A stretch of 64,000 bases of DNA from Limnochorda pilosa. GTDB lineage: Bacteria > Bacillota > Limnochordia > Limnochordales > Limnochordaceae. The DNA lies in NCBI RefSeq assembly GCF_001544015.1, contig NZ_AP014924.1, positions 2,294,001 to 2,358,000 of the forward strand, written 5' to 3'. Positions within the stretch are counted from its first letter, which is position 1, and every line of letters begins with the position of its first letter. The notes under the pieces were generated by a model. It saw only the letters and a program-made list of their open reading frames with translations. It had not been told where the DNA came from and ran no database searches. Position numbers and translations under genes: made by a program. Below, piece after piece: positions 7,705-42,929 of the stretch.

Positions 7705-7726
7705 GGCGCGGCCCGGCCTCCTCTCC

Positions 7727-8587: not shown

Positions 8588-8656
8588 CCGTCTCACCTCA
8601 CCCGCGGCAGGCCGCCGGCCCCGCGGGGCTCGCACCCCGCCGGGCCGGCGCCTCCC

Positions 8657-9838
8657 TCACCAGGAGTCCGAGACGTTCTCGTACCGGCCGATCACCACGT
8701 TGCCGAGGCTCCCGTCCGGCAACCGGTCGACCCGCCGGATGTACACGTTGAAGACGACGTTCTGGCTGGTCGGGTCGAAGCGGAAGGGCCCGGCCGGCCC
8801 GGTGAAGGTCACCGCCCGCAGGGCCTCCAGGAAGGCGTCCGTCTCTTCCACCCGACCACCGACGCCCTCGATCGCCTCGGCGATCACCCGCGCCGCGAGG
8901 TACCCCTGGTAGGCGAACTGGTTGGCCGTCTCGCCGTAGCGACCCCGGTACTGCTCCACGAAGGAGCGATTCTCGGGCGTCTCGACCAGGGGGCTGTAGT
9001 GGAGCGAGGTGACCGTTCCCAGCGCGGCCTCCCCGATCTCATCCAGGTAGGCCTCGTCCACCATGTCCCCCGCGCCGATGAGCGGCATCCTCTCCTTCAG
9101 CCCGAACTCCTGGTACTGCTGGACGAAGCGGACCGCGTCGGTGCCTGCGAAGAAGGCCCAGACCGCGTCCGCCTGCTGCAGGCCCGCCAGGTAGGGGCCG
9201 AAGTCGTTGGTTCCGAGCGGGGGATAAACCTCCTGGACCACCCGGCCGCCGGCCTGCTCGAAGTACTGCTTGAAGGCGCCTGCCTTGTCGTGGCCCGCGC
9301 TGTAGTCGGGGGCCGTCACGACCACCGTCCGGTACCCGAGGACCTCGTAGGCGTACCGGCCCAGCAGGTACTCGTACTGCCCGTTGGCGAAGGAGACCCG
9401 GAAGATGTAGGGGCTCCGGCGCGCCGGATCCCGGGTGAGGCTGGGGTCACCGGCGTTGGCGATGACCAGCGGGATCCTCCGGGCGTGGACGTAGTCGCGG
9501 ATCGCCGCGGCCACGCCGCTGTGGACGACGCCGACCAGCAGGTCGACCCGGTCCCGCTCCACCAGCTGCCGCACCTTCGGCAGCCCCTGCCGCGGGTCGC
9601 CCTGCGTGTCCTGCTTGACCAGCTCGAGCCGCCGCCCCGCCGCCGTGTAGCCCGTCTCCTCCAGGAAGAGCTCCAGCCCTGCCGTGATGTTCTCTCCCAG
9701 GCTCGTGTAGACCCCCGAGTACGGCAGGAGAACACCGATCCGGATGGGATCGGACTGGGCCGTCGCGGGGCCCGCGAGGAGAAGGGCGACGACGAAGGCG
9801 GTGAGGACCACCCGAAGACGAGGCGCCAGCTTGACCAT
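8657..9838 (-). CDS. livK: LIV-type periplasmic/lipid-side substrate-binding protein (Peripla_BP_6)
   Basis: The protein has 393 residues from ATG 9838, with a signal peptide (about 29 residues, ending ATAQ). The mature part begins DPIRIGVLLPYSGVYTSLGE, a typical Peripla_BP_6 N-terminus. No lipobox cysteine is seen, so it may be freely secreted or anchored by the uncleaved signal. Its place between the monooxygenase gene and livH ties the importer to aromatic degradation. Binding proteins of this family in such operons bind aromatic acids, but the ligand here is not known. Confidence 0.93.
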   Translation of the reverse strand: MVKLAPRLRVVLTAFVVALLLAGPATAQSDPIRIGVLLPYSGVYTSLGENITAGLELFLEETGYTAAGRRLELVKQDTQGDPRQGLPKVRQLVERDRVDLLVGVVHSGVAAAIRDYVHARRIPLVIANAGDPSLTRDPARRSPYIFRVSFANGQYEYLLGRYAYEVLGYRTVVVTAPDYSAGHDKAGAFKQYFEQAGGRVVQEVYPPLGTNDFGPYLAGLQQADAVWAFFAGTDAVRFVQQYQEFGLKERMPLIGAGDMVDEAYLDEIGEAALGTVTSLHYSPLVETPENRSFVEQYRGRYGETANQFAYQGYLAARVIAEAIEGVGGRVEETDAFLEALRAVTFTGPAGPFRFDPTSQNVVFNVYIRRVDRLPDGSLGNVVIGRYENVSDSW

Positions 9839-27399: not shown

Positions 27400-28689
27400 T
27401 TAGGGGGCCAGGATACGTTCGATATTCTCACTGGCCGTCCGCACCGCGGTGGCCGCGTCCATCCGCCCGGCCAGGACGTTCTGGACCATGGACTGGATCT
27501 GGTCCGAGACCTCGGGCCACTCGGGAATCGGCGGGCGGAATGCGGCCACCGGGAAAACATCGAGTACCACCTGCCAGTTGGAACCCGACAGCTCCGGCGC
27601 GTCTTCGGCCACGTCCATGCGGGCCGGCATGGGCCCCCCGTGCCGGCGCATCCACTCGCGCCACGTCTCGTAGCTGGTGATGTACTCGATGAACTTCCAG
27701 GCGGCGTCCTTCTGTGTCGATTGGGACGAAACCACGGACGCCCAGCCGCCGAAGACCGACGCGGGCTCCGTGTTGTAGGGGTGCATGGCCACCCTGTAAT
27801 TGCCCTTGATTTCGGGGTTCGCCAGTTCGATGAGCGGGAAGGACCAGGGACCTCCGATGGCCATGGCGAGCCGCCCCTGGGCCATCATGGTCCGATAGTC
27901 GTCTTCCCCGTAGGAGAGCGTACCCGGCGGGGAGACCCGGTACTTGGTGAACAGGTCCGTGTAGAACTGAAGGGCCTCGATGCCCGCCTCGTTGTTGAAA
28001 GCCACGTGCTGGTAGTCGTCGGTGAGCAGCTTGCCCCCGTTGCCCAGGAGGAAGATCATGTATCCGAGGGTCGTAACCTCACTCTTCAGCCCGGATACAC
28101 CATAGCCATAGGTGCCCCGCGCCGGGTTGGTGAGGATCTTGGCGTACTCCAGGAGTTCCTCCCAGGTTTGCGGCGGCTTGTTCGGGTCAAGACCCGCTTC
28201 CTCGAACATCTTGGTGTTGTAGAGAAGCAATCGGTCGTCGGTGTACCATGGCAGGCCGTAACGGTTTCCCTCATACTCAACGGTAGGCCACAGGTTCGGC
28301 CAGATCTGGTCCGTAACCTCGCTGGCGGCCAGGCGGTCGTCCAGTGGCTCGAGCCAGCCCCTGGAGGCGAAGGTGGGTACCCACCCGCCCAGGTCCGCAA
28401 AGGTCACGTCGGGAGGGGTACCAGCGCTGAACGCCGTTACCAGGTTGTCGTAGTAGACTTCGAACCCGATGAGGCGATACTCGACGTCGATGCCCGTCTC
28501 TTCCTCGAACCCGGCAATGATCTCTGCCCAGGTCCGCTCTTGCTCGACGATGTGCCCGCCCACCCAGACCGTGAGCGGTTCGGCAGCTACGCTGGTCGAG
28601 CCCATCAGGAACAGGGCGAGAACCAGCAGGATCGACACGCGTCGACCGGACACTCTGAACATCCCCCTTTGCAGCCGTTGTTGAGACAT
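27400..28689 (-). CDS. CUT1 sugar-binding protein (SBP family 1)
   Basis: The 429-residue protein has a signal peptide (VSILLVLALFLMGSTSVAA). The mature protein starts EPLTVWVGGHIVEQERTWAE and carries the family motifs GIDVEYR, GTPPDVTFADLGGW and the C-terminal SQSTQKDAAWKFIEYI. No lipobox is clear. ATG 28689 and an internal ATG nine codons later are both possible. It lies 20 bp after the FGGY kinase gene and supplies the ligand to the two permeases downstream. The substrate is likely a ketose or polyol, judging from the kinases. Confidence 0.92.
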   Translation of the reverse strand: MSQQRLQRGMFRVSGRRVSILLVLALFLMGSTSVAAEPLTVWVGGHIVEQERTWAEIIAGFEEETGIDVEYRLIGFEVYYDNLVTAFSAGTPPDVTFADLGGWVPTFASRGWLEPLDDRLAASEVTDQIWPNLWPTVEYEGNRYGLPWYTDDRLLLYNTKMFEEAGLDPNKPPQTWEELLEYAKILTNPARGTYGYGVSGLKSEVTTLGYMIFLLGNGGKLLTDDYQHVAFNNEAGIEALQFYTDLFTKYRVSPPGTLSYGEDDYRTMMAQGRLAMAIGGPWSFPLIELANPEIKGNYRVAMHPYNTEPASVFGGWASVVSSQSTQKDAAWKFIEYITSYETWREWMRRHGGPMPARMDVAEDAPELSGSNWQVVLDVFPVAAFRPPIPEWPEVSDQIQSMVQNVLAGRMDAATAVRTASENIERILAP

Positions 28690-28709
28690 ACCCTCGCGTC
28701 ACGGACCGA

Positions 28710-30236
28710 TCACTTCGGAGAGACATCACCTCGCCGTTCGTCCCTGCCAGCCCGCCTGGCTCCCTCGAGGGCCAGCGGCAGGAGTTCCAGGTGGTGTTGA
28801 TACAGTCCGGCATACTTCGCGTGCTCCTCCGCCCGGATGCTGAACTGGCGCGTGCTCCCTTCCGAGAGCCGGTTCAGGTCGGTTTCGGTCAGTAGACCAG
28901 AGCCGAGCCCAGCCAACAGGGCTGCGCCGAACCCGGCGCCCTCCTGGTGTGCAGCTACCTGGAGGGGGAGCCCCATCACGTCCGCCTTCAACTGCATCCA
29001 GCACCGGTTGGCGGTACTGCCCCCGACGGCCCGAACCACTTTGGGCGCAACACCCGCACCCTTCTGCAGGCGGTCGAGGAGGCGTCTTGCCTCGAAGGAC
29101 AGCCCTTCCAGCAGCGCCCTCGCCAGGTCCGCGTTGGTGTGGAAGTCGCGCAGGCCAAGGATCATGGCCGCGTCCGGCGCCCCCACCACGTCGGCGGACG
29201 TGCGGAAGTACGGGAAGAAGCGGAGGCCGCGGGCGCCGACCTCCGATTGCTCGGCCCGCCGGCCAAGCTCGTCGTAATCTGGATCCGTTCCGGTGAGCAT
29301 CTCTCGCACGAACCACGTCGCGGAGAGGCCGGACGTCCGCAGAGTCGTCATGCCGTAGAACAGGCTCGGGAACAGGTGGTGGCCGATCACCACTTCCTGG
29401 TGAGGAAGCGCCCGTTCAAACCCGTCAGCGCTCAGGGCCGTCAGGATGGTCTCGGCCGTTCCGCAGGAGTTGAGGACGCGTGACTCGCGGGTAGCCCCGA
29501 CAGCCAGCGCCGACGCAAGCTGGTCATGGGCTCCCGAGCAGACAGAGACATCCTCGGGAAGGCCTGTCTCCCTGGCGGCGGGGCCTGTGACGCGACCGAC
29601 CCGTGTACCACCGGGGACCGGGGTCGGTAGCAGAGACGCCTCGAGCCCGCACTCGTCCAGGATCTCCGAGGACCAGACTTCCTGACGCACATCGAAAGCC
29701 ATGGTGCGGGATGCCAGGGAGAAGTCGGTCGCTGCCACTCCTGAGAGCCTGAAGGCGACCCAGTCTGCCATGTTCAACCAGTATCGGGCTCGCTGAAACC
29801 GGGCACGATCGTGCTCCCGGTACCATAGAAGCTTGCTGACCGAGTAGGTGAAGTCGGCCGGCAGGCCCGTGATCGACCGGAGGGTTTCACGGCCCAGGCG
29901 TGCCACTAGCTCTTCGGCGATCGGTCGCGTCCGGGGATCGAACCACGCCAGAGCCGGAAAGAGCTCCCTCCCCTGGTCGTCGACCAGGAACCCTGCCTCT
30001 CCCATGCTGGCACAGGCCACACCTGCCACCTGCCCGGGATCGATCTGACTCACCAGCTCCCGGATCAAGCGGACGATGACGCTCCACAGCGCGGCCCCTT
30101 CATACACGACGCGGCCATCCCCCTCGTCACGGGAGGGCGTGGGGGCGCTGACCACCCGATGCTGTCGGCCAGTCTCATCCACGACGATCGCTTTGATACG
30201 GGTCGTCCCGAGGTCGATACCTATCAGGTAGGCCAC
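28710..30236 (-). CDS. FGGY-family carbohydrate kinase
   Basis: GTG 30236 follows GAGGGGGTG and gives 508 residues starting AYLIGIDLGTTRIKAIVVDE, the N-terminal ATP-binding fold. Other landmarks are MGEAGFLVD, the DPRTRPIAEEL substrate segment, GAHDQLASALAVG and the C-terminal EGLSFEARRLLDRL with AVGGSTANRCWMQ. FGGY kinases phosphorylate ketoses and polyols such as xylulose, tagatose or glycerol. It sits directly after its SorC regulator and before the importer. A disrupted relative lies at 42515-42929. Confidence 0.92.
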   Translation of the reverse strand: MAYLIGIDLGTTRIKAIVVDETGRQHRVVSAPTPSRDEGDGRVVYEGAALWSVIVRLIRELVSQIDPGQVAGVACASMGEAGFLVDDQGRELFPALAWFDPRTRPIAEELVARLGRETLRSITGLPADFTYSVSKLLWYREHDRARFQRARYWLNMADWVAFRLSGVAATDFSLASRTMAFDVRQEVWSSEILDECGLEASLLPTPVPGGTRVGRVTGPAARETGLPEDVSVCSGAHDQLASALAVGATRESRVLNSCGTAETILTALSADGFERALPHQEVVIGHHLFPSLFYGMTTLRTSGLSATWFVREMLTGTDPDYDELGRRAEQSEVGARGLRFFPYFRTSADVVGAPDAAMILGLRDFHTNADLARALLEGLSFEARRLLDRLQKGAGVAPKVVRAVGGSTANRCWMQLKADVMGLPLQVAAHQEGAGFGAALLAGLGSGLLTETDLNRLSEGSTRQFSIRAEEHAKYAGLYQHHLELLPLALEGARRAGRDERRGDVSPK

Positions 30237-30253
30237 AGATGCACCCCCTCGCC

Positions 30254-31246
30254 TCAAGATCCGCTCGCATCCAGGACGGCGGCAGCGGTGCGCGAGTCGA
30301 TCACCAGAACATCGACCAACCGGCCCTTCAACGCGGCCAGGATCGAGGCGGTCTTCTCCGTCCCACCGGCCACGGCGACCACCCGTGCCCGGCGCACCCG
30401 ATCGATTTCGATTCCAACGATGCACCGGTGTACGGGCAACGGCTGAATCACGCCCTCGACGTCAAAGAACCGCGAGAGCAGATCCCCGACGATGCGCCAC
30501 CCCTCGGCCGAGATCAACTCACCCGTACCGAAATAGGGGGTCCGGAACAGCGGCGAGCGAGAGAGGTCGTAACCGATGCCAACCAAGGCCAGATCCAGCC
30601 GGTCCCAGAGTTTCACGGCCGGCTGCACGGCCGGATCACCGATGAGCGAATCCCGCAGCTCACCGGTCTCGACGATGAAGGGGAGATCCAGGGGTTGCCA
30701 GGTACCGTTCAACCCATCGGCCAGCGCCTTGGCCAGGTCGTTCGACCGGAACTCAGGCCTGGTGTCGCCCAGCGCGCCCAGGAGCGGTACGACCTGCACG
30801 TGGTGGGACTCCTCGACCGACCGCATGCCGATGTGGGTCACCACCCGGTGAACGGTGTGACCCCACCCGACGCCAAGGACACCGATACCATCCAGGTGGG
30901 CGAGGAGCCAATCCGACCCCGCCCGGGCCAGGTCGGGCATCACACCCGCGCTGTCGCTGGCGCGGCTGGGTACCACCACCGCATCCTGAAGCTCGAAGCG
31001 CCGGATCATCCTGTCAGCGAGGGCCGCGTTCACCTTGCGCGGGTCGGTTACCTCGATGCGAACGACGCCCTCCCGGCGCGCCCGCTGCAACAACTGGTTG
31101 ACCCGCAGGCGCGTCAGACCCAGGGCCCGTCCCACCTCAGCCTGGGTCATGCGCTGAAGGTAGTAGCGCTCTGCACAACGGACCATGAGGTCGATCTCTC
31201 GGTCGGCTGCGCCAGCCATCCCTGGTGCTTCCCTGGCCTCTTCCAA
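30254..31246 (-). CDS. SorC/DeoR-like sugar-responsive regulator
   Basis: TTG 31246 has AGGAGCGG upstream and gives 330 residues; an internal ATG at codon 10 is possible. The N-terminal helix-turn-helix reads MTQAEVGRALGLTRLRVNQLLQRARREGVV. The rest is a SorC sugar-phosphate-binding domain (LGVGWGHTVHRVV, EFRSNDLAKALA, VVAVAGGTEKTASILAAL). It is first in the operon and faces a 27-bp palindrome, its probable operator. The expected inducer is a phosphorylated sugar made by the kinase downstream. Confidence 0.92.
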   Translation of the reverse strand: MEEAREAPGMAGAADREIDLMVRCAERYYLQRMTQAEVGRALGLTRLRVNQLLQRARREGVVRIEVTDPRKVNAALADRMIRRFELQDAVVVPSRASDSAGVMPDLARAGSDWLLAHLDGIGVLGVGWGHTVHRVVTHIGMRSVEESHHVQVVPLLGALGDTRPEFRSNDLAKALADGLNGTWQPLDLPFIVETGELRDSLIGDPAVQPAVKLWDRLDLALVGIGYDLSRSPLFRTPYFGTGELISAEGWRIVGDLLSRFFDVEGVIQPLPVHRCIVGIEIDRVRRARVVAVAGGTEKTASILAALKGRLVDVLVIDSRTAAAVLDASGS

Positions 31247-31795: not shown

Positions 31796-33313
31796 CTAAC
31801 CGGAGGCCGCGCTCTCCGTCTCGACCCGGGCCCGGGCCTTTCGCGTCATCACGTGCGACCCGACCAGCGCCCCCACCGAGGCGAGCAGCAGGATCAGGCT
31901 GATCGGCCGGGTGACGAAGACGGTCAGGTCCCCGCCAAAGCGCTGCATGGTCCGGATCAGCTCGGCGTCGGCCAGCGGCCCCAGGATGATCCCCAGGATG
32001 ACCGCGATCACGGGATAGTCGTACCGGCGCAGGAGCCACCCGAGAACGCCGAAGGCGACCATGACGACCGGATCGACCAGGCTGTTGCGGCCGGCGTAGG
32101 TACCCGCCACGGTGAGGACGCCCAGCACTGGCACCAGATAGCGGACCGGGATGTTGACGACCTTCGAAAACGCGTAGGAGAGTACGAAGCCCACCGGGAG
32201 CAGAAGGAAGTCCTGAAGGGCGTTGGCGACGATGTAGGCGTAGACGACGTCCTGGTGCTCGTAGACCATGCGCGGCCCTGGGACCCAGCCCTGCAGGATG
32301 ATGGCGCCCAGCATCACCGCCGTCGCCGCGCCCCCGGGGACGCCCAGGACCAGCATGGTGGCTGTGGCGCCGCCCTCGGACGAGTTGTTGGCCGACTCGG
32401 AGGCGATGATCCCTTCCGGAATGCCGGTGCCGAACCGAGACGGGTTCCGGGAGGAGTGCTTGGCCGCGTTGTAGCTCACCAGGGAGGCGACGGTCGCCCC
32501 AGCGCCCGGGAGCGCTCCGACACCGACCCCGATCGCCGCCGAGCGGATGATGTTCCACGGGTGGCGGAGCACCTCGCGCATCCCCCGGAACATCTCCCCG
32601 ATCTGCTCTCGAGAGAGCCGCGTCGTCTTGGACAGGTACGACTGATCCAGGAGCACCAGCAGCTCCGAGAAGCAGAAGAGTCCGATCAGCGCCGGGATCA
32701 GGGGCACACCGTCCAGGAGCTGGTAGTTGCCGAAGGTGCCCCGCATGGCGCCGGTGGTCGACATGCCCACCATCCCCAGGAGGAGGCCCAGCAGCCCGGC
32801 CAGGTACCCCTTGGCCACATTGGCGCCCTGCAGGGAGGCGATGATGGTCAGCCCGAAGATGGCGATCATGAACATCTCCGGTGGGCCGAAGGAAAGGGCC
32901 AGGGTGCCCAGGGGGCCGATCGCGAACAAGAGCACGAGCGAGCCAATCAGCGAACCTAGGGCGCTCGCGCCCACGGCCAGCCCCAGGGCCCGCCCCACCT
33001 GGCCCTTCTGCATCATGGGGTAGCCGTCGAAGACGGTGGCCGCCGAGGCCGGCGAGCCGGGGGCGTTGATGAGGATGGCCGTGATCGCCCCGCCGTAGTT
33101 GCCGCCCGTGTAGATGGACGAGAGGAAGACCAGCGAGCTGAGCGGGTCCATGTAGTAGGTCACCGGAAGCATGAGGGCGATGCCGGTGCCCCCCGTCAAC
33201 CCCGGGATGGCACCCAGGATGGTGCCGAAAGCCACCCCGCCCAGCATGAGGAAGAGCATCCAGGGTGTCGTGATGCTCGGGAGGATCTGCGGGAGTTGCT
33301 CCAGGATCTCCAA
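31796..33313 (-). CDS. tctA: Tripartite tricarboxylate transporter large membrane subunit TctA
   Basis: The protein has 505 residues from TTG 33313 (GAGGTGAATC upstream). It is polytopic, about 12 hydrophobic segments, with the TctA hallmarks GAIPGLTGGTGIALMLPVTY, YTGGNYGGAITAILINAPG, GALPGAGATVASLVSY and ANNSSEGGATATMLVLGVPG. It imports a di- or tricarboxylate together with TctB and the binding protein TctC. It is the last gene of the operon that also encodes a hydro-lyase and a carbon-carbon lyase, which suggests a substituted dicarboxylate substrate. Confidence 0.96.
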   Translation of the reverse strand: MEILEQLPQILPSITTPWMLFLMLGGVAFGTILGAIPGLTGGTGIALMLPVTYYMDPLSSLVFLSSIYTGGNYGGAITAILINAPGSPASAATVFDGYPMMQKGQVGRALGLAVGASALGSLIGSLVLLFAIGPLGTLALSFGPPEMFMIAIFGLTIIASLQGANVAKGYLAGLLGLLLGMVGMSTTGAMRGTFGNYQLLDGVPLIPALIGLFCFSELLVLLDQSYLSKTTRLSREQIGEMFRGMREVLRHPWNIIRSAAIGVGVGALPGAGATVASLVSYNAAKHSSRNPSRFGTGIPEGIIASESANNSSEGGATATMLVLGVPGGAATAVMLGAIILQGWVPGPRMVYEHQDVVYAYIVANALQDFLLLPVGFVLSYAFSKVVNIPVRYLVPVLGVLTVAGTYAGRNSLVDPVVMVAFGVLGWLLRRYDYPVIAVILGIILGPLADAELIRTMQRFGGDLTVFVTRPISLILLLASVGALVGSHVMTRKARARVETESAASG

Positions 33314-33335
33314 GTCGGATTCACCTCACCTCTGT

Positions 33336-33782
33336 TCAGAACCGAACCGAGAGGGCGTAGGCGAAGACGGCGTAGATCGCCCCACCCCCGAGCACCGAGA
33401 CCAGAAGGATGCTCCACGCGTTCCGCACCCCAAGGTAGAGCAGGGTGGCTGCAATGAAGAGAATGCTGGCCGGGAGGAAGCCGATCCAGCCGAAGAGCCG
33501 GAGGTAACCAGCCGCCAGCACCACAAAGGCCAGGCGCCAGAGGGTCCTCCTGATGGGCTCCCCTGCCTTGCCCTGTAGTCGTCCGACGACCACCTGGCCC
33601 AGGAGAATGAGGCTCAGGATCGCGATGGCCAGCAGGACCGGCCGCGGCAGGAGCAGGTTCAGCTCGGGCCTTGAGATGTCGTGCACGTCGATCCAGTAGA
33701 TCGCCGCGAGCACCAGGGTGAGAGCCGGCACGATCGCCTCGCCCCAGGCGATCTGACGTCTGGCCGGTGTCGTGCTTCCCAT
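33336..33782 (-). CDS. tctB: Tripartite tricarboxylate transporter small membrane subunit TctB
   Basis: ATG 33782 follows GGGGGAGG and gives 148 residues with four hydrophobic helices, as usual for this poorly conserved subunit. It lies 22 bp before tctA and 160 bp after tctC. It is identified mostly by context and topology. Confidence 0.88.
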   Translation of the reverse strand: MGSTTPARRQIAWGEAIVPALTLVLAAIYWIDVHDISRPELNLLLPRPVLLAIAILSLILLGQVVVGRLQGKAGEPIRRTLWRLAFVVLAAGYLRLFGWIGFLPASILFIAATLLYLGVRNAWSILLVSVLGGGAIYAVFAYALSVRF

Positions 33783-33942
33783 GGTTCCTCCCCCTTCCCT
33801 CAGAGAACCCCGCACGTGGGAGGCCGACTGCCACCTCGGCCCCGGACGGCCCGGCTCCCGGGGGTATCCGCCCTCCCAGGGGCCGGGCCCTCGAGAGGCC
33901 CCCAGCATCGGGCCGGGCCCGCATGGGGCCCGGCCTCCGTCG

Positions 33943-34941
33943 TCACTGACCCAGGAACATCTCCTTGAACTGGTTCACCACGGCGTTGGCGTCCCGCACC
34001 TGAGCGTTGGACTCCTCCGGCCCGACGAACTGGGTGACCAGCTCCACGCCGCTCTCCTTGCTCCGCTCGATGAACTTCGGGTTGGAGAGCGCCGCCTCAT
34101 AGGTCCTCAGAAGGGTCTGGTAACGGTCGGGGTACTTCTCCTTCAGCGAGGCGTGGACCGCGACGAACCGGACCGATCCCAGATTGGGGACCGTGACACC
34201 GTAGGGCGCCAGCGCCTCGTTGAGCACCTCCGCCTCCGGCCAGCCGGGGAAGGGCTTGGTGCCCGAGACAGCCAGCACGCGGGCCCGATCGCCCATGGCC
34301 ATGTCGCCCGCGGCCGAGCCCAGGGAGAAGTCGATCTGCTCGCCCATGAGCGCCACCCGCAGCGGGCCGCCGCCGTCGTAGAAGACCTCGATCACGTCCA
34401 GCCCCAGCGCGTCGAAGATCAGGTTGCCGACCACGTAGTCCCACCCGCCGGGCTCCACGCCCCAGGCGAGCCTGCCCGGGTTCGCCCGGATCGCCTCCAG
34501 CAGATCTGCGAGCGTCCGGTAGGGCGAGCTGGCAGGCACGGTGATCGCGACCGGGTCGAACTGCTGCACGTTGAGGATGTCGAAGTCGTCCAGCTCGTAG
34601 CTGGCGCCCCGGAGGATGCTGGCGCTCAGGTACGGCTCGGTGCCGACCATGATGGTGTAGCCGTCGGGACGCGTGCGGTAGAACCGCTCAAAGCCCACCT
34701 GGCCCTGGGCCCCCGAGTAGTTCTGGAGCACCAGCGGCACGCCGAGTTCCTGTTCCCAGTAGGGAGCCAGCGCCCGGATCATACGGTCCACGCTGCCGCC
34801 CGCATCGAAGGGAATGATCACTTCGATCTCGTGGGCCGGATAGCTCTGGGCCACGGCCATCCCGGCCTGGGCAAGAACGATCGCCGCGCAGACCAGACCG
34901 ACCGCCAGCGCCTGCCGCCACCAACCCTCTTGCCTGCTCAT
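33943..34941 (-). CDS. tctC: Tripartite tricarboxylate transporter binding protein TctC
   Basis: This 332-residue protein has a signal peptide ending GMAVAQ. The mature part begins YPAHEIEVIIPFDAGGSVDRMIRAL and contains GYTIMVGT, typical of the Bug/TctC family. These extracytoplasmic receptors bind carboxylates through two loops. Its ATG overlaps the stop of the LeuD-like gene (ATGA), linking transport to the enzymes. Confidence 0.95.
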   Translation of the reverse strand: MSRQEGWWRQALAVGLVCAAIVLAQAGMAVAQSYPAHEIEVIIPFDAGGSVDRMIRALAPYWEQELGVPLVLQNYSGAQGQVGFERFYRTRPDGYTIMVGTEPYLSASILRGASYELDDFDILNVQQFDPVAITVPASSPYRTLADLLEAIRANPGRLAWGVEPGGWDYVVGNLIFDALGLDVIEVFYDGGGPLRVALMGEQIDFSLGSAAGDMAMGDRARVLAVSGTKPFPGWPEAEVLNEALAPYGVTVPNLGSVRFVAVHASLKEKYPDRYQTLLRTYEAALSNPKFIERSKESGVELVTQFVGPEESNAQVRDANAVVNQFKEMFLGQ

Positions 34942-35474
34942 GACCTGCCACTCCCTCCCCTTGTCGATGAGCCATGCTCCTCCTGAAGCTGCAGGAGGAA
35001 ACCTTTGAGCCCCCCCGCTTCGAGGAGCTGTTGCGCGAAATCGGGAAGCGGGGACGTCTTCAGCGTCGTGCCCCGGGTCAGGTTGCGGATCTGGCCCCGC
35101 TGGGGCTGGACCTCGATCTGATCCCCGGTTGCAGCGTGCTCGGTGATCCCGGGCACTTCCAGCACCAGGATCCCGTTGTTCAAGGCATTGCGATAGAAGG
35201 TCCGGGCGAAGGACTCGGCCAGGATCGCCCCTACCTGAAGCTGCTTCCAGACCAGGACCGCGAACTCACGGGAAGAGCCCGAGCCGAAGTTCACTCCTGC
35301 CACGATCACGTCACCAGGCCTCGCCCGGGAGCCGAACGTCGGCTCCAGCGGCTCCATCGCGTGGCCCGCCATCTCCTCGAGACTCGGAAGGTGCAGGTAC
35401 CGGGCCGGAATGATCGCATCCGTGTCCACATCGTCGCCGAAGACCCAGGCCCGTCCGTTTACCTCACCCGTCAC
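34938..35474 (-). CDS. Aconitase-superfamily hydro-lyase small subunit (LeuD/DmdB type)
   Basis: GTG 35474 is chosen by the upstream GGGATGGGTGG and by alignment; the product has 178 residues. Motifs are VFGDDVDTDAIIPARYL, FGSGSSREFAVLVWKQL and FARTFYRNALNNGI, the swivel domain of LeuD-type hydro-lyases. It pairs with the large subunit encoded 88 bp upstream. With a lyase and a carboxylate transporter in the same operon, a catabolic role such as dimethylmalate/citramalate-type (de)hydration is likelier than leucine synthesis. Confidence 0.9.
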   Translation of the reverse strand: MTGEVNGRAWVFGDDVDTDAIIPARYLHLPSLEEMAGHAMEPLEPTFGSRARPGDVIVAGVNFGSGSSREFAVLVWKQLQVGAILAESFARTFYRNALNNGILVLEVPGITEHAATGDQIEVQPQRGQIRNLTRGTTLKTSPLPDFAQQLLEAGGLKGFLLQLQEEHGSSTRGGSGRS

Positions 35475-35562
35475 GGTCCACCCATCCCTTCTTGGCCAGA
35501 ATCGCCCACTCGTCACGCCACCCCTGCCGCCCGCCCCTGGTGCCCGCCCCTGCCGGCCTGCT

Positions 35563-36810
35563 TCAGAGCGAGAGGGGGTCCGTCACCTCGCCGCGGATCG
35601 CCGAGGCGGCCACCACCGCGGGGCTGGAAAGGTAGATCTGGGCGTCCGGATGGCCGCTCCGGCCGACGAAGTTCCGGTTCTGGGAGGAGATCCTCACGTC
35701 CGCCGGCCCCATGACGCCCAGGTGAATGCCCGGACAGGCGCCGCACCCGGCGTTGGTCACGATCGCGCCCGCATCCTCCAGGATGTCGACGTACCCTGCC
35801 CGCCGGGCCGCCCGAAGGATCCACTGGCTCGCCGGCGTGACGATCATCTGGACGTGGCGCGCCACCCGCCGCCCCTTGAGGATCTCCGCCGCGACCGCCA
35901 GGTCCGAGAGGGTGGCGTTGGCACAGCTTCCGATGAAGGCCTGGGTGATCCGGGTTCCCGCCGCCTCCCGCACCGGCTGCACGTTGCCCGGGTTGTGGGG
36001 AGCGGCCACGAGAGGGGTCAACTCACTCAGGTCGATGACGATGCGCTCCGCGTACTTCGCCTCGGGATCGGCCCTCCACTCTTGGGGATCCACGGTAACG
36101 CCCGCCTCGCTCAGGTAGCGGGCCGTCTCCTGGTCCGGAGCGAAGATGCACGCCTTGGCGCCCATCTCGGTCGACATGTTGCAGACGGTCATCCGCTCCT
36201 CGATGGAGAGCCGGTGCGCCGCCGGGCCGGTGAACTCCAGGGAACGGTAGCGAGCGAAACGGGTGCCGCAGCGGCGGAGAATCTCGAGGGTCAGGTCCTT
36301 GGCGTAGACGTAGGGCGGGAACTCCCCCGTCAGCGAGATCTCGATGGTCTCGGGAACCTTGAACCACATCTTCCCGATGGCGAAGACGGCGGCGATCTCT
36401 GACGCCCCCAGCGCGGTGCCGAAGGCGCCCAGGGCCCCCAGGGTGTTGGTGTGGGAGTCGCTGGCCGCCACCAGCCGTCCCGGCCGGGCGAAGCCCCGCT
36501 CCGCCAGCACCTGGTGCTTGATCCCCTCGGAGACGAAGCAGTGGGCGAGCCCGTGCTCCTCGGCAAAGTCGATCATCTCCCGGATGCGCCGCCCCTGGTC
36601 CGGAGTCGCCGCCGGCAGGTAGTGGTCGCCCACCAGGACGCCCCGGTCGCCGATGGCGATCTTCCCCCCGAACTCCTGCAACCGCTGCCGGAAGACCGGA
36701 AACTGGATGTCGCTCACCACGGCCACGTCGATCTCCGCCAGGATCAGTTGACCCGGCGCCACCGAGTCCAGGCCCGCCTTGCGGGCGAGGATCCGCTCGG
36801 TCAAGTTCAC
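35563..36810 (-). CDS. Aconitase-superfamily hydro-lyase large subunit (LeuC/DmdA type)
   Basis: The protein has 415 residues from GTG 36810, the short LeuC2/HacA-like length. The 4Fe-4S ligands are in IGSCANATLSDL and NAGCGACPGIHLG. Other motifs are SDSHTNTLGALGAFGTALG and RMTVCNMSTEMGAKACIFAPD. Together with the small subunit it should interconvert a 2-hydroxy and a 3-hydroxy acid, or hydrate a maleate-type double bond. Its start overlaps the lyase gene stop (GTGA). Confidence 0.92.
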   Translation of the reverse strand: MNLTERILARKAGLDSVAPGQLILAEIDVAVVSDIQFPVFRQRLQEFGGKIAIGDRGVLVGDHYLPAATPDQGRRIREMIDFAEEHGLAHCFVSEGIKHQVLAERGFARPGRLVAASDSHTNTLGALGAFGTALGASEIAAVFAIGKMWFKVPETIEISLTGEFPPYVYAKDLTLEILRRCGTRFARYRSLEFTGPAAHRLSIEERMTVCNMSTEMGAKACIFAPDQETARYLSEAGVTVDPQEWRADPEAKYAERIVIDLSELTPLVAAPHNPGNVQPVREAAGTRITQAFIGSCANATLSDLAVAAEILKGRRVARHVQMIVTPASQWILRAARRAGYVDILEDAGAIVTNAGCGACPGIHLGVMGPADVRISSQNRNFVGRSGHPDAQIYLSSPAVVAASAIRGEVTDPLSL

Positions 36811-37703
36811 GGTTCCACCCCCACGATCCGAACTGCCGCCGCGTGCACCTTCCGCTCGAAGGCGTCGTACCGGTCGAGCCCCACCAGCGCTTCCCGCTCG
36901 GGGAAGGTCGCCATCAGATCCCCCGACCCATGGGTCGAGCCGTCGTCCAGAATCATCCGGGTGATGCGCCGCATGGCCGGGATGGTGGCGAGCTGGAGGT
37001 CCGTCGGGAAGATGATCAGCCTGTAGCCGTAGGAAGCCAGCTCCGCTACCGTCGCCTCGGGAATCCGCCCGCCCTTGGGCCCCCGGTTGAACATGAGCGG
37101 CCCCTCCACCAGCTCCGGCAGGACCTGGATCTGCTCCACCGTCTCCGGTGCCTCTACGAAGAGCACGTCGGCGCCCGCCTGCTTGTACCGCTTCACCCGG
37201 GCGACGGCCGCCTCGAAGCCCTCGACCGCGATCGCGTCGGTCCGGGCGATGATCACCAGGTCCGGATCCTCCCGAACCTCCCGGGCCGCCACGATCTTGG
37301 CCACCATCTCTTCCACCGGTTCGAGCCGCTTCCCCGAGAGGTGACCGCAGCGCTTGGGCAGGGCCTGGTCCTCGATCTGAACCGCCGCGACGCCCGCTCG
37401 CTCGAACTCCCGAACGGTCCTGGCCACGTTTCGGACCCCGCCGTAACCCGTATCCGCGTCGGCCACCAGGGGCACCGACGAAGCGGCCACGATGGCCCGC
37501 AGCCGGTCGACCACCTCGGTCATGGAAAGGAGGCCGATATCCGGCACCCCGGTGCTCCGGGCGATCGCCCCTCCCGAGGCGTAGAGCGCCCGGGCGCCCG
37601 CCTCCTGCGCCACCCGGGCCGAGAGGCCGTCATAGACCCCGATGGCCACACACGGTTCCGCCGATCGCAACTGCTCCCGCAGGCGCTGGGTCATGGACGC
37701 CAC
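36807..37703 (-). CDS. Isocitrate lyase/PEP mutase-family carbon-carbon lyase
   Basis: The protein has 298 residues (GTG 37703; ATG 37694 is an alternative). It shows the PrpB/dimethylmalate-lyase pattern: YASGGAIARSTGVPDIGL, ADADTGYGG for the metal, QIEDQ and the catalytic PKRCGHLSG with Cys119. Members cleave 2-methylisocitrate, 2,3-dimethylmalate or oxaloacetate-type substrates. It is the first gene of the operon lyase, LeuC-like, LeuD-like, tctC, tctB, tctA. Products would be a keto acid such as pyruvate plus another acid. Confidence 0.9.
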   Translation of the reverse strand: MASMTQRLREQLRSAEPCVAIGVYDGLSARVAQEAGARALYASGGAIARSTGVPDIGLLSMTEVVDRLRAIVAASSVPLVADADTGYGGVRNVARTVREFERAGVAAVQIEDQALPKRCGHLSGKRLEPVEEMVAKIVAAREVREDPDLVIIARTDAIAVEGFEAAVARVKRYKQAGADVLFVEAPETVEQIQVLPELVEGPLMFNRGPKGGRIPEATVAELASYGYRLIIFPTDLQLATIPAMRRITRMILDDGSTHGSGDLMATFPEREALVGLDRYDAFERKVHAAAVRIVGVEP

Positions 37704-37852
37704 GAGCGCATAGCCCCTTTCATCGGCAAGCCCCCTGCCAGCCGGCCCGGCGGGCAGGGTTCACCCGCGAGAAGCTCCTTTTCAGAAGGAACCCCTCCAC
37801 GATGATCGTATCAGAGCACCAGAGGCTACCTCATGAGCGTTGGAAATGGGAC

Positions 37853-37867
37853 TATGCAGAAAACGCA
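37853..37867. promoter_or_regulatory. LysR-type T-N11-A operator candidate
   Basis: ATGCAGAAAACGCAT has perfect 4-bp arms around seven bases and fits the T-N11-A LysR box. It lies between the divergent lyase operon (start 37703) and the LysR gene (start 37936), where an activator site is expected. Confidence 0.6.
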
Positions 37868-37935
37868 TGGAATCCGGGCCTCACGTCTGGGCGGAACCTG
37901 TACCGTAACCGCCACCAGGCTTGGGGGTGCGCGAG

Positions 37936-38850
37936 ATGGACCTGGCACAACTGGAGACCTTCCAGGCGCTGGTGGAGACGGGCAGCTTCACCGCCGCGGC
38001 CCGGCGACTCTTCGTCTCCCAGCCCACGGTCAGCCGTCAGATCCACCGGTTGGAGAAGGAGTGCGGCACCGCCCTGCTCGAGAGGGGCAAGAGGGGCGTT
38101 CACCTGACCCCCGCCGGGGAGCGTTTCGCCCTCTACGGCCAGCGGCTCCTCTCCCTCAGCCGGGAGGCGCTGCTGGAGGTGAACGAGGCGGCCCAGGCGA
38201 GCCAGCGGGTAGTACGGATCGGCTCCGGCGTCACCACCGCCCTGGTCACCCTGCCCAGGGCCCTGGGCGAGTTCCGGCGCCGGCACCGCAGCGTCCGACT
38301 CCTGGTGAAGACGGGGCGCCGGGCCGCCCTGCTGGACCAGGTCGTCTCAGGCGATCTGGATCTGGCCATCACCACCTGCGATTCGGTCCCACCCGCGGTC
38401 CGGGGGGTCCACCTCTTCGACGAGACCCTCGTCCTGGCCGCCCACCCGGACCACTGGCTCAGCCACCGCCCCCAGCCGCTGGATGCCGCCTGGCTGGACC
38501 GGGCGCCCCTGATCGCCTTCTCCTCGGACGTGGGTCACCGCCAGTACCTGGACCAGGTCCTGGCCGATGCAGGCCTCCAGCCCGAGATCACCATGGAGCT
38601 GGACAACGTCGCGCTCATCCTGCAGTACGTGCGGATGAAGATGGGCGTCGCCTTCATCCCCTGGCCCGCGGCCCTGAACGCCATGAAGGAAGGCAACCTG
38701 CGTATCTTCGAGGTGGAGGGGCTCCCCGAGATGATCCGCCACAAGTACGTCCTGCTCCCGGACCGGGACCCCCTCCCACCCCAGGTGGCAGCGCTCCTGG
38801 ACCACCTCTGCTCCTTCCCCTGGGAAGGAACCACGCCCCCGCCCCGGTGA
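37936..38850 (+). CDS. LysR-family regulator of the carboxylate operon
   Basis: ATG 37936 is preceded by GGGGGTG and gives 304 residues. The N-terminal helix-turn-helix reads MDLAQLETFQALVETGSFTA and RRLFVSQPTVSRQIHRLE. A LysR substrate-binding domain follows (VRIGSGVTTALVTLPRALGEF, GDLDLAITT). It is divergent from the lyase/hydro-lyase/tct operon and probably activates it in the presence of the imported carboxylate or a pathway intermediate. Confidence 0.93.
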   Translation: MDLAQLETFQALVETGSFTAAARRLFVSQPTVSRQIHRLEKECGTALLERGKRGVHLTPAGERFALYGQRLLSLSREALLEVNEAAQASQRVVRIGSGVTTALVTLPRALGEFRRRHRSVRLLVKTGRRAALLDQVVSGDLDLAITTCDSVPPAVRGVHLFDETLVLAAHPDHWLSHRPQPLDAAWLDRAPLIAFSSDVGHRQYLDQVLADAGLQPEITMELDNVALILQYVRMKMGVAFIPWPAALNAMKEGNLRIFEVEGLPEMIRHKYVLLPDRDPLPPQVAALLDHLCSFPWEGTTPPPR

Positions 38851-39125: not shown

Positions 39126-39185
39126 CAAATGTATCTTAGCGTTTGTGCATCAAGTGTTGACAACAAATGTACAGAGGGGTAACGT
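39126..39185 (+). promoter_or_regulatory. Promoter region with two SorC-like half-sites before the second CUT1 cluster
   Basis: CAAATGTATC (39126-39135) and CAAATGTACA (39164-39173) repeat the half-site of the 31263-31289 operator, 38 bp apart. A consensus -35 TTGACA (39157-39162) lies inside the core palindrome TGTTGACAACA, and a weak -10 (TAACGT, 39180-39185) follows after 17 bp. Repressor binding here would block the promoter. Confidence 0.6.
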
Positions 39186-39238
39186 TAACTGGGAGTTACC
39201 TCCTAAACTTCGAAACCTCAGGGAGGGTTGGTTGCGTT

Positions 39239-40558
39239 ATGCAACGGCTTGGGCATTGGCTCGCTGTAGCCGTCGCCGTCGTGATCATCGCTGGCTGCAC
39301 GATCGGTGTCGCGGCTCAGGACTCCCTTTCAGGCACCAAGGTCACCGTCGCCCTTCGCTCGCTCTCCGAGACCGACTACATCGTCTCCCGCCTGGCTGAG
39401 TTCGAGAAGCAGACGGGTATCGACGTGACCGTCGTCACTTACGCCGAGCAGCAGCTCCGGGAGAAGGAGGTCCAGGACCTCAGCACCGGTGCCGGGCAGT
39501 TCGACGTGGTGGCCATCGACAGCGTCTTCATCCCTGAGTTCGCCCAGGCTGGGTGGCTCGTACCTCTGGCACCGTACCTCGACCCCGAATACGACCTCGC
39601 GGACATCCCCGACTCCGTCCACGGGCTCTTCTCCTGGAACGACGTCCTCTACGCGGCGCCCGTTTATGCGGAGATCACCCAGCTCATGTACCGCAAGGAC
39701 CTCTTCGAGAAAGAAGGTATTGCGGTACCCACGATCTTTGAGGAGCTGGAAGAGGCCGCAGCCCACTTCACCCGTCCCCCCAACCTGTACGGCCTGGCCA
39801 TGCGCGGCCTCCGGGGGAACGGGATGAACGTTTACACCTGGGCGACGTGGTTCCGGGCGTTCGGAGGTGAGTTCCTTGACGAACAATCCCGCCCGATCTT
39901 CAACAACGCGGCGGGAGTCAAGGCGACCGAGGAGTATGCCCGCCTCCTGCAGGAGTACGGACCTCCCGGAGTGGCCGGCTATAGCTGGGACAACGTCCAG
40001 ACGGCCTTCACGTCCGGCCGTGTGGCCATGATCATCGACGCGAACAACTTCTACACCCGTATAGAGGACCCCGACAAGTCGGCCATTGCCGGCAACATCG
40101 GCTACGCAGTGGTTCCCGCCGGCCCCGAGGGTAGCTTCCCGGGCAACTACGCTCTCGGCTTTGCCATCAGCTCGGTGGGCGCCCGCTCCGACGTGGAGAA
40201 GAAGGCCGCGGCAGCTTTCATTAGCTGGGCCACCAGTGCTCAGATGCAGATGGATTCGCTGGAAGCGGGTATCGTGAGCCAGACCCGCACGTCGGTTCTG
40301 GAGAGCCCCGAGTTCGCGCGGTCACTGCATCCCGAGTGGATCGCCTCCACCGTGGAGTCGTGGGAGATCACCAACCCCAACCACCGGCCACTCTTCCCCG
40401 GCTGGCGCTCCATGGGTGACGCGATCGGCATCGCCGTGCAGCAGGTCATCGCGGGCGAGCGGCCGGCTCAGGAGGCCCTGAATGAGGCCGTCAAGACCAC
40501 GGAGGACCTCTTCAAGCGGACCGGCGACTACGGCAAGCCCAGACCCTACGAGTTCTAG
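39239..40558 (+). CDS. CUT1 sugar/polyol-binding protein (SBP family 1)
   Basis: ATG 39239 follows GGGAGGG and gives 439 residues. The signal peptide (HWLAVAVAVVIIAGC) ends in a possible lipobox, IAGC, so the protein may be a lipoprotein. Family features include KVTVALRSLSETDYIVSRL, DVVAIDSVFIPEFAQAGWL, GYAVVPAGPEG and KAAAAFISWA. It resembles polyol-type binding proteins, which fits the two zinc dehydrogenases downstream. The permease follows after 9 bp without the hairpin seen in the other three importers. Confidence 0.92.
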   Translation: MQRLGHWLAVAVAVVIIAGCTIGVAAQDSLSGTKVTVALRSLSETDYIVSRLAEFEKQTGIDVTVVTYAEQQLREKEVQDLSTGAGQFDVVAIDSVFIPEFAQAGWLVPLAPYLDPEYDLADIPDSVHGLFSWNDVLYAAPVYAEITQLMYRKDLFEKEGIAVPTIFEELEEAAAHFTRPPNLYGLAMRGLRGNGMNVYTWATWFRAFGGEFLDEQSRPIFNNAAGVKATEEYARLLQEYGPPGVAGYSWDNVQTAFTSGRVAMIIDANNFYTRIEDPDKSAIAGNIGYAVVPAGPEGSFPGNYALGFAISSVGARSDVEKKAAAAFISWATSAQMQMDSLEAGIVSQTRTSVLESPEFARSLHPEWIASTVESWEITNPNHRPLFPGWRSMGDAIGIAVQQVIAGERPAQEALNEAVKTTEDLFKRTGDYGKPRPYEF

Positions 40559-40567
40559 GGAGCGACG

Positions 40568-41506
40568 ATGATGCCCATGGTGCCGCAGGACACCGACACA
40601 TCCCTAGCAGGCAGGCTCTTGCGGCGGCCAACGGGCGGGCGCGAGGAGAAGCCACGGCTTCTCCTCGCGATCCCCCTGGCAGTCCTGGCCGTCATCGCCT
40701 TCGTGCCCTTGTTCTATGCCATCTACATCGCGGTTCACGACGTCTACCTGACGAGGAACCTTGGCACTGCTTTCGTGGGTCTGGACAACTTCGTCCGAGT
40801 CCTCACCACGAGCCGTGGCCTGCACGCCTTCGCCGTCACCTTTGAGCTGGTGATCATCTCGGTGGCGGTGGAGCTCCTCTTGGGCCTGGCCATGGCCGTC
40901 CTCATCCAGCGGGCCTTCCCCGGCAAGAGCTGGCTCGTTACCCTGGTCGTGCTGCCCATGACCATTCCTAAAGTGGTGGCCGCGCTGGTCTGGAACGTGC
41001 TCCTCGACCCGCTGGTGGGGGTCATCAACTACTTCCTGGGGATCGTCGGGCTCCCTCTGGTCGACTGGCTCGCAGACCCCGATGTGGCCCTGTTCTCGGT
41101 GGCCATGGTCGACATCTGGCAGTGGACGCCCTTTATCATCCTGATTCTGCTGGCAGGGTTGGGAACCATCCCCCGAGAGCCTTATGAGGCCGCGGAACTG
41201 GAGGGCGCCACGGCCTGGAGGACCTTCCGCGGCATCACCCTGCCCCTCCTGAAGCCGTTCATCACCATCGCGGTCATCTTCCGAACCATCGACGCCATGC
41301 GGACCTTCGACTACGTCTACGTCCTCACCAAGGGAGGACCGGGGCTCGCGACAGAGACCGTAGACCTTTACGCCTACAAGATGGGCATCGCCGAGGCCGG
41401 CGACATCTCGTCGGCCACTGCCGCCGCGATCCTGCTGCTGGTGCTCACCCTCATCATCACCACCCTCTGGGTTCGCGCCATGCGCTGGGGTGAGGAGCTC
41501 TACTGA
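40568..41506 (+). CDS. CUT1 ABC transporter permease (MalF type)
   Basis: This 312-residue membrane protein has about six helices and the EAA loop YEAAELEGATAWRTFRGITLP followed by TKGGPGLATE. The soluble N-terminus of about 30 residues carries no known domain. It pairs with the next permease, and no ATPase gene is nearby. Confidence 0.94.
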   Translation: MMPMVPQDTDTSLAGRLLRRPTGGREEKPRLLLAIPLAVLAVIAFVPLFYAIYIAVHDVYLTRNLGTAFVGLDNFVRVLTTSRGLHAFAVTFELVIISVAVELLLGLAMAVLIQRAFPGKSWLVTLVVLPMTIPKVVAALVWNVLLDPLVGVINYFLGIVGLPLVDWLADPDVALFSVAMVDIWQWTPFIILILLAGLGTIPREPYEAAELEGATAWRTFRGITLPLLKPFITIAVIFRTIDAMRTFDYVYVLTKGGPGLATETVDLYAYKMGIAEAGDISSATAAAILLLVLTLIITTLWVRAMRWGEELY

Positions 41507-41628
41507 GCGAGCGGCTTTCCGAGCCCACCTGGGTGCACCCCGGCCAGGGTGCCGACCGGGTGGACCGCGGTCGGGTAAGCACACGGGTGGTGTACGATCG
41601 GATGCCGGCTGAGAAGGAGTGGTGGACC

Positions 41629-42498
41629 GTGGCACGGGAATCAACGGTTCCCGCCCCCCAAAGGCGGGGCCGGCTACGCTGGGGCGACGTGGGGGCCAGG
41701 CTCCTCGTCCTGGGGTACCTGATCGTCCTGTACTTCCCCATCTACTGGATGGTCACCATGGCGTTCAAGCGGCGGGTGGACATCACCATCATCCCGCCTA
41801 GGTTCATCTTCAAGCCCATCCTGCGCAACTTCGAGTGGCTCTTCGTCCATCAGGACATTTGGGGCCCCATCACCCGGGGGTTCATGGTATCAGTAGCATC
41901 GGTGGCCATCGCCATCGTTCTGGGCACCATGGCTGCCTACGCCCTGGCCCGCTTCCGCTGGTGGCGCCAGAACGACCTGGAGTACTGGATCGTCTCCACC
42001 CGGATGCTGCCCCCGGTGGCGGTGATCATCCCATACTATTACCTTTGGATGAAGTTCCGAATGCTGGATACTCTCACAGGCCTCGGTATCACCTACCTCA
42101 CCATCAATCTCCCGCTGGTGATCTGGCTCCTCATCGGTTTCTTCCGGAGCATTCCCAGGGAGATGGACGATGCGGCCCGGGTGGACGGCTGTAGCCCGTT
42201 GCAGGCCTTCTGGTACATCGCCCTGCCCATGGCGAGGGGCGCCGTAGGCGCGGCAGCCATCCTGGCCTTCATTTTCACGTGGAACGACTTCTTCTTTGCG
42301 TTCATCCTGACCACGGTCAACTTCACCCTGCCCGTGGCCCTATCGTCCTTCATGACGGTTGGGCTCGAGGTGAAGTACGGGGAGATGGCAGCCGCCGGGT
42401 TGCTGGCGGCCATTCCGTCCCTGGTGCTGGCCATCCTGGCCAGGAAGTGGATTGTGACGGGGTTCCGGGGCATGGCCGGCATCGCGGCGACCCGGTGA
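41629..42498 (+). CDS. CUT1 ABC transporter permease (MalG type)
   Basis: GTG 41629 follows AAGGAG with 9 bp spacing and gives 289 residues. An upstream frame to 41533 is not conserved. The protein has six helices, the EAA loop DDAARVDGCSPLQAFWYIALP and the end RKWIVTGFRGMAG. STRMLPPVAVIIPYYYLW is typical of the polyol-type MalG subunits. Confidence 0.94.
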   Translation: MARESTVPAPQRRGRLRWGDVGARLLVLGYLIVLYFPIYWMVTMAFKRRVDITIIPPRFIFKPILRNFEWLFVHQDIWGPITRGFMVSVASVAIAIVLGTMAAYALARFRWWRQNDLEYWIVSTRMLPPVAVIIPYYYLWMKFRMLDTLTGLGITYLTINLPLVIWLLIGFFRSIPREMDDAARVDGCSPLQAFWYIALPMARGAVGAAAILAFIFTWNDFFFAFILTTVNFTLPVALSSFMTVGLEVKYGEMAAAGLLAAIPSLVLAILARKWIVTGFRGMAGIAATR

Positions 42499-42514
42499 CG
42501 AAGGAGACGACGTC

Positions 42515-42929
42515 ATGGGCGAGGGGCTTATGCTGGGCATCGACGTGGGGACCACCCAGTGCAAGGCAGCCGCCTTCACCCTCACGGGGCACCGGGTGGG
42601 TTACGCTTCCACCCCCACCCCCATCCACCAGGACGGTCCTGAGAAGGCCTGGCACCGGAAGAATGGTCGAGGGCCTGGCCTTCGAAACTCGGCGGCTCCT
42701 GGAGCGCCTCCGCGCGGCGGGAGCCGCCGGCGAGGAGGGCCGGCTCCGGGTGCGGGCCGTAGGCGGCCCCAGCCGGGACAGCCTGTGGATGCAAGTGAAC
42801 CCCCGCCCATGGACGACCAGGCTTCCACGGTCTGTCAGGCCACGTCCGAAGAGGAGAGGGCGTACCAGGAGTTCTATCGAAACCTATGTCGCGACCCTGG
42901 ACGCGCTTGCCAGGGCTCTGCGAGCTTGA
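42515..42929 (+). pseudogene. Disrupted FGGY-family kinase gene with internal deletions
   Basis: The 5' end is intact for about 45 codons (LMLGIDVGTTQCKAAAFTLT, the ATP-binding fold). At about 42655-42662 it jumps, in a new frame, to MVEGLAFETRRLLERL and LRVRAVGGPSRDSLWMQ, which align with the C-terminal third of the intact kinase at 28710-30236. The end (AYQEFYR then TYVATLDALARALRA) needs a further frame change. Roughly 300 codons are missing. A working kinase must come from elsewhere if this pathway still runs. Confidence 0.85.

Follow-up and report, generated by a model that had tools for sequence, protein, structure and literature searches.

A 64,000-nucleotide stretch of the Limnochorda pilosa genome (NZ_AP014924.1, positions 2,294,001 to 2,358,000; hereafter the window) contains, at positions 31796–38850, an operon encoding a tripartite tricarboxylate transporter (TTT), a LeuCD-type hydro-lyase and a lyase of the phosphoenolpyruvate (PEP) mutase/isocitrate lyase superfamily, with a LysR-type regulator facing it. 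The reading favoured here, held with not quite even confidence, is that an alkylmaleate or 3-alkylmalate would be taken up, hydrated or isomerised to a 2-alkylmalate and cleaved to pyruvate plus acetate or propionate. Isopropylmalate dehydratase and (methyl)isocitrate lyase are the usual annotations for such families, and the window pair is probably neither. If the substrate of one such pair were found, many clusters would be re-annotated and a small-acid route without coenzyme A (CoA) activation would be gained.

Gene content and layout of the operon

The window was found to hold six minus-strand genes in the order tctA, tctB, tctC, leuD-like, leuC-like and lyase, with lysR divergent on the plus strand (Table 1). 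All eight Pfam domain scores of the seven proteins exceeded their cut-offs, and the gene set, order and place proposed in the initial annotation were borne out. The six minus-strand genes form a single operon with the regulator divergent from it, an arrangement far outside chance expectation. The lyase/leuC and leuD/tctC reading frames overlap by 4 bases each, the other intervals between listed open reading frames (ORFs) within the operon measure 46, 34 and 22 bases, and the divergent gap between the lyase gene and lysR is 217 bases. Judged from ORFs and alignments, tctB probably starts at about 33782; the listed ORF is over-long, and the real tctB–tctC gap would therefore be about 160 bases. 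The lysR start probably lies at 37936 rather than the listed 37921, and the true start of leuD may lie some 14 codons into the listed ORF. The T-N11-A boxes in the promoter region are possible, yet such boxes are frequent by chance.

Queries with methylcitrate synthase, PrpD, PrpF and aconitase found no further gene in the window, in line with the earlier statement that methylcitrate synthase is missing; acyl-CoA steps in general were not fully searched. Decay of the operon was rejected, as conserved columns deviate in only 0 of 41 cases in the lyase, 3 of 68 in LeuC and 1 of 26 in LeuD. Composition gave no sign of foreign origin, with a GC content of 68.5% in the cluster compared with 67.2% in the window.

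Table 1. Features of the operon and its divergent regulator, in window coordinates
Feature	Coordinates	Strand	Evidence
tctA, large membrane subunit of tripartite tricarboxylate transporter	31796..33313	-	PF01970 444 bits
tctB, small membrane subunit	33336..33908	-	PF07331 43.5 bits, residues 59-189
tctC, periplasmic carboxylate-binding protein	33943..34941	-	PF03401 72.6 bits
LeuD-like small hydro-lyase subunit	34938..35516	-	Aconitase_C 55 bits; TIGR02087 179.5 bits
LeuC-like large hydro-lyase subunit, HacA/archaeal type	35563..36810	-	Aconitase 317.7 bits; TIGR02086 467.4 bits
PEP mutase/isocitrate lyase superfamily C-C lyase	36807..37703	-	PF13714 PEP_mutase 181.7 bits
Divergent promoter region, operon/lysR	37704..37920	.	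candidate T-N11-A boxes
LysR-type regulator	37921..38850	+	HTH_1 89.1 bits, LysR_substrate 142.8 bits

The hydro-lyase is probably distinct from the leucine biosynthetic enzyme

LeuC and LeuD scored above the cut-offs of TIGR02086 (467.4 versus 410.15) and of the LeuD/DmdB family TIGR02087 (179.5 versus 108.95), respectively. The three cluster cysteines of LeuC (GSC, CGAC) and the GSSRE motif of LeuD are intact, and both these residues and the subunit layout are shared with the biosynthetic LeuCD and isopropylmalate/citramalate isomerases. The window pair differs from these in having no leuA/leuB linkage and in missing the biosynthetic equivalog cut-offs (LEU2, 396.9 versus 610.65; leud, 155.5 versus 245.85). 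Cut-offs for homoaconitase and aconitase were also missed (HacA_Meth, 385 versus 550; PRK07229, 331.8 versus 612). According to PMC7308503, specificity of the hydro-lyase is set by the recognition region of the small subunit. At this loop, solved small subunits read YLRT in homoaconitase and YLVY in the isopropylmalate/citramalate enzyme; the window LeuD reads YLHL, within YLHLP, and its lack of Arg would argue against a third carboxylate on the substrate.

In a LeuC(+LeuD) tree of 63 rows (L075_17156 dropped), the window pair fell outside a 20-row LeuB-linked clade with a support of 98. Of the 18 pairs that have a LeuB neighbour of at least 45% identity, 17 lie in this clade, together with L152, L174 and L115 (L numbers denote loci); L182 is the only LeuB-linked pair outside it. 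The rows closest to the window hydro-lyase were L183, which is nearest, and L184 (94 support), both TTT-linked catabolic LeuCDs. Grouping the window pair with the LeuB-linked pairs was not rejected by an approximately unbiased (AU) test (p 0.108), and genome context therefore outweighs the tree on the leucine question. The genome, a single contig of 3.82 Mb, has a second LeuC/LeuD pair of bacterial type at 15.4 kb and a LeuA above its cut-off (708 versus 598.7 bits), so that the window pair would be dispensable for leucine synthesis. The one same-genus genome examined (86% complete) yielded no LeuC of the window type, and its best lyase match was 49% identical.

The neighbourhoods of the two nearest pairs (L183, 4838-16165; L184, 1-17349) contain TTT genes, LeuCD, and genes resembling LeuB/homoisocitrate dehydrogenase, dihydroorotate dehydrogenase, MmgE/PrpD and RraA, with UbiD/UbiX-like genes nearby, a putative carboxylate pathway seen in two genomes. 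Gene names there other than TctC, LeuC, LeuD and LeuB-like were read by eye; the L183 dehydrogenase was also scanned.

The lyase falls in a clade of its own in the best tree

The KRCGH loop, the Mg-site acids, ED-Q and ARTD are all kept in the lyase. It shares with PrpB of the methylcitrate cycle its superfamily, its fold and the KRCGH loop, but scores below both PrpB cut-offs (272.2 versus 354.4 and 226.6 versus 353). Among 121 lyases compared, an N-x-T-E-F-G loop was present in all 8 prp-linked rows and in one unlabelled row, and is absent from the window lyase; ANMVEGGRTP was found in all 10 nicotinate-linked rows and also in some others. The window loop, FNRGPKGGRIP, has one extra residue and occurs in no other of the 121, and L067 and L071 carry an insertion of differing sequence at the same position. 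The window lyase and all ten rows of its clade lack one residue at the same point (YxSG-G, with Y or H as its first letter), as does the prp-linked L077.

The lyase tree placed the window in this clade of ten (99 support), outside both the 12-row Dml set (100) and the 9-row PrpB set (99); it is a quick tree with SH-aLRT support only, in which the window is among the long branches. L162 (Thermus) is an annotated prpC-prpD-prpB reference locus. The ORF sets excluded L003, L004, L006, L089, L119, L002, L007 and L008, and also any short duplicate of a longer locus. An AU test rejected grouping of the window lyase with prp-linked rows (p 0.039) but not with nicotinate-linked, that is GlmL-linked, rows (p 0.086), which makes kinship with PrpB unlikely and is compatible with kinship with Dml; such tests are weak evidence on kinship. 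The predicted structure was modelled with a mean pLDDT of 95.9. It was rejected as a guide to substrate, since the fold search returned the superfamily only, with methylisocitrate lyases as best matches (TM about 0.9).

Comparison with nicotinate fermentation

In the nicotinate fermentation of Eubacterium barkeri, a DmdAB-type hydro-lyase and a Dml-type lyase act in sequence. Anchors for this pathway emerged when 299 genomes of the phylum were searched for the lyase, with a match in 53, and they make the comparison directly testable. L159 contains DmdA, DmdB, a B12 mutase, a PrpF-type isomerase, GlmL, Dml and an enamidase-like gene; L152 and L188 contain similar sets with Hgd- and Hmd-like genes, DmdAB not adjoining in L188. 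The anchor gene names are a reading of gene order and sequence; at E 1e-20, NCBIfam matched neither the mutase nor the enamidase of L159.

The two enzyme families found together in the window, a LeuCD-family hydro-lyase and a PEP-mutase-family lyase, are also encoded together in these operons, and the mechanistic analogy drawn in the initial annotation holds at this level. The window differs in its own TTT and LysR genes, in a lyase that the best tree puts in another clade, and in the lack of a mutase, GlmL or PrpF gene, as Mgm, GlmL and PrpF queries found none in the window. By blastp the window lyase and the L159 Dml share 49% identity over 282 residues; identity to the L159 DmdAB is 38% for LeuC and 35% for LeuD. 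Placing the window LeuCD with the L159 DmdAB was not rejected by the AU test (p 0.60), the forced tree being 4.2 log units better, and placing it with the L152 DmdAB was rejected (p 0.031).

The L159 and L152 anchors do not group together in the LeuC tree. The L152 DmdAB (7429-9530) nests inside the LeuB-linked LeuCD clade and that of L159 lies outside it, so that DmdAB apparently arose more than once; the L152 position suggests a recent recruitment of leucine genes.

Recurrence of the lyase with LeuCD and an importer

Among 80 loci picked by lyase similarity alone, 23 had LeuC no more than 2.5 kb from the lyase (3 of HacA type and 20 of bacterial type), and 8 had it only farther off. TTT genes lay within 6 kb in 20 of the 80, and TTT genes and LeuC were both present in 8. 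Of the 29 loci from the phylum, at least 9 had LeuC or an aconitase-type relative near, 1 of these with TTT as well; these counts are a lower bound because in 19 of the 29 the sequence examined reached only about 1.5 kb to either side. When the LeuCD label was mapped on the lyase tree, at least 17 changes over 89 scored rows were required, which implies numerous gains or losses of the partnership. For this count L151 and L157, with two lyases each, had both scored as LeuCD-linked, and L159 was set as LeuCD-linked by hand.

Similar LeuCD and lyase pairs, several with importers, were seen in Firmicutes, Proteobacteria and haloarchaea, and the importers vary. In L149, L151, L153, L156 and L157, all Firmicutes, an SSS-like symporter and a PrpR-N-type regulator accompany HacA-type LeuCD and the lyase; this resembles the window in having hydro-lyase, lyase, importer and regulator together, and differs in the families of importer and regulator (read by eye) and in the clades of the lyases. 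L150 has an ABC set. TTT is present in L154 and the window, and Roseomonas L179 has a TTT binding protein alone. LeuCD or aconitase kin are tied to TTT genes in several clusters, each differing from the window: a LeuB-like dehydrogenase accompanies them in L183 and a LarA-like gene in L185, L154 has a true aconitase and isocitrate dehydrogenase, and the LeuCD of L179 is of another branch. The view that an importer of its own sets the window apart was therefore too strong, TTT being in the operon as described but such trios carrying several importer kinds elsewhere. Recurrence with varied importers indicates that the parts of the cassette are already known; the window adds one more variant, in which the lyase lineage is its own and the TTT is complete.

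Two further arrangements were noted. L153 (223-7961) combines two LeuCD pairs, three lyases and the SSS-like symporter in a single run, the PrpR-N-type regulator adjoining, and in L185 (1577-7786) TTT genes are followed by the LarA-like gene and LeuCD, another combination of import and hydro-lyase.

The importer

PF01970, PF07331 and PF03401 occur together over cut-off, so that the TTT transporter is complete; its tctA is one of 6 TctA genes in the genome. The nearest solved relatives of TctC are BugD, a terephthalate-binding protein and other TTT binding proteins, with no E value better than 2e-27. As these bind differing acids, TctC was set aside as a substrate guide.

Proposed pathway and alternatives

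In the proposed pathway, TctC would bind a branched dicarboxylate from outside the cell, of alkylmaleate or 3-alkylmalate type (dimethylmaleate, citraconate or a near relative), and TctAB would import it. The [4Fe-4S] LeuCD-type hydro-lyase would hydrate or isomerise it to a 2-alkylmalate, and the lyase, with its Mg site and Cys/His loop, would cut C2–C3 to give pyruvate and a short acid, acetate or propionate. The route would be CoA-free throughout, and LysR would sense the substrate, making the operon substrate-induced. Support comes from the overlap of reading frames within a single operon that includes an importer and faces a divergent LysR, from the DmdAB/Dml analogy, from the lack of both the T-E-F-G loop and the LeuD Arg, from the separate LeuCD and LeuA, from the TTT-linked nearest LeuCDs and from the LeuC–lyase linkage in 23 of 80 loci. 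A broader proposal is put forward more tentatively still: that this is a self-contained pathway, independent of CoA, for growth on an exogenous branched carboxylate that has no described route of such kind, that a lyase lineage distinct from Dml and PrpB joined LeuCD independently, and that import, hydration and cleavage form a general plan assembled many times in prokaryotes with varied importers and hydro-lyases. Among the open-licence literature, no paper was recognised as describing this gene set.

The cleavage of a substituted maleate or malate to pyruvate plus an acid, as originally suggested, thus remains the favoured account, but it has a serious rival, less probable though far from negligible, in which TTT imports citrate, methylcitrate or aconitate, LeuCD serves as the aconitase, and cleavage of isocitrate or methylisocitrate by the lyase yields succinate and glyoxylate or pyruvate. 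The neighbourhoods of three relatives make a tricarboxylate the main rival substrate and weigh against the favoured account. In Rhodococcus opacus the sister lyase (94 support) is plasmid-borne and adjoins a true AcnA (TIGR01341, 1285 bits versus a cut-off of 945), a citrate:proton symporter and PrpD-/PrpF-like genes; L154 combines TTT, true aconitase, lyase, PrpF and NADP-isocitrate dehydrogenase; and Hydrogenophaga L181 ties LeuCD to TcuA (tricarballylate dehydrogenase), PrpF and TTT binding proteins. To the same side belong the findings that most members of the window lyase's own clade have no adjoining LeuCD, that the motif reading of this lyase is uncertain because its loop is unique, that the His of the LeuD loop could bind a carboxylate, and that TctC points to no ligand. 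The methylisocitrate lyases at the head of the fold search agree with a tricarboxylate route but are expected for the whole superfamily. This route is opposed by the LeuD loop without Arg, the missed homoaconitase and aconitase cut-offs, the lyase without a T-E-F-G loop, the rejected prp-linked grouping, and the presence in the genome of its own aconitase-type and ICL-like (isocitrate lyase-like) genes. Direct evidence for a lyase acting only on methylisocitrate was not found, the window enzyme scoring below the PrpB cut-offs.

It is unlikely that the trio descends from a nicotinate-fermentation operon as a true Dml/DmdAB set acting on 2,3-dimethylmaleate, with an importer added. The identity to the L159 Dml and the AU results for Dml and the L159 DmdAB leave room for this kinship, but the lyase lies in another clade (99 support), the hydro-lyase falls with importer-linked LeuCDs, the L152 DmdAB grouping was rejected, and the Mgm, GlmL and PrpF queries found no gene in the window; the phylogenetic comparison with Dml, DmdAB, LeuCD and PrpB called for in the initial annotation gave no support for descent. 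Least probable is that LeuCD is a second isopropylmalate or citramalate isomerase for amino acid synthesis and the lyase an unrelated neighbour. The window loop IIPARYL is similar to LeuB-linked loops, and the AU test allowed that grouping, but canonical LeuCD and LeuA are encoded separately, the equivalog cut-offs were missed, the pair lies outside the 98-support clade, and the hydro-lyase frames overlap those of the lyase and tctC. No direct evidence for a true isopropylmalate isomerase was obtained.

The R. opacus cluster itself (L161, 6506-17870) comprises PrpD, lyase, AcnA, citrate symporter, an AbrB-family gene and PrpF, with no annotated methylcitrate synthase, and possibly uses imported methylcitrate or aconitate.

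Flanking genes

Two sugar-type ABC transporter-like gene sets, with ORFs read by eye, flank the operon at 27400-31246 and 39167-42498, and one of them carries a kinase and a SorC-like regulator (also read by eye). A plus-strand ORF at 42279-42929, after the sugar-ABC permease gene, resembles a short part of the FGGY-type kinase at 28710-30425, sharing 23 of 47 residues with it, and appears to be what is left of a kinase gene.

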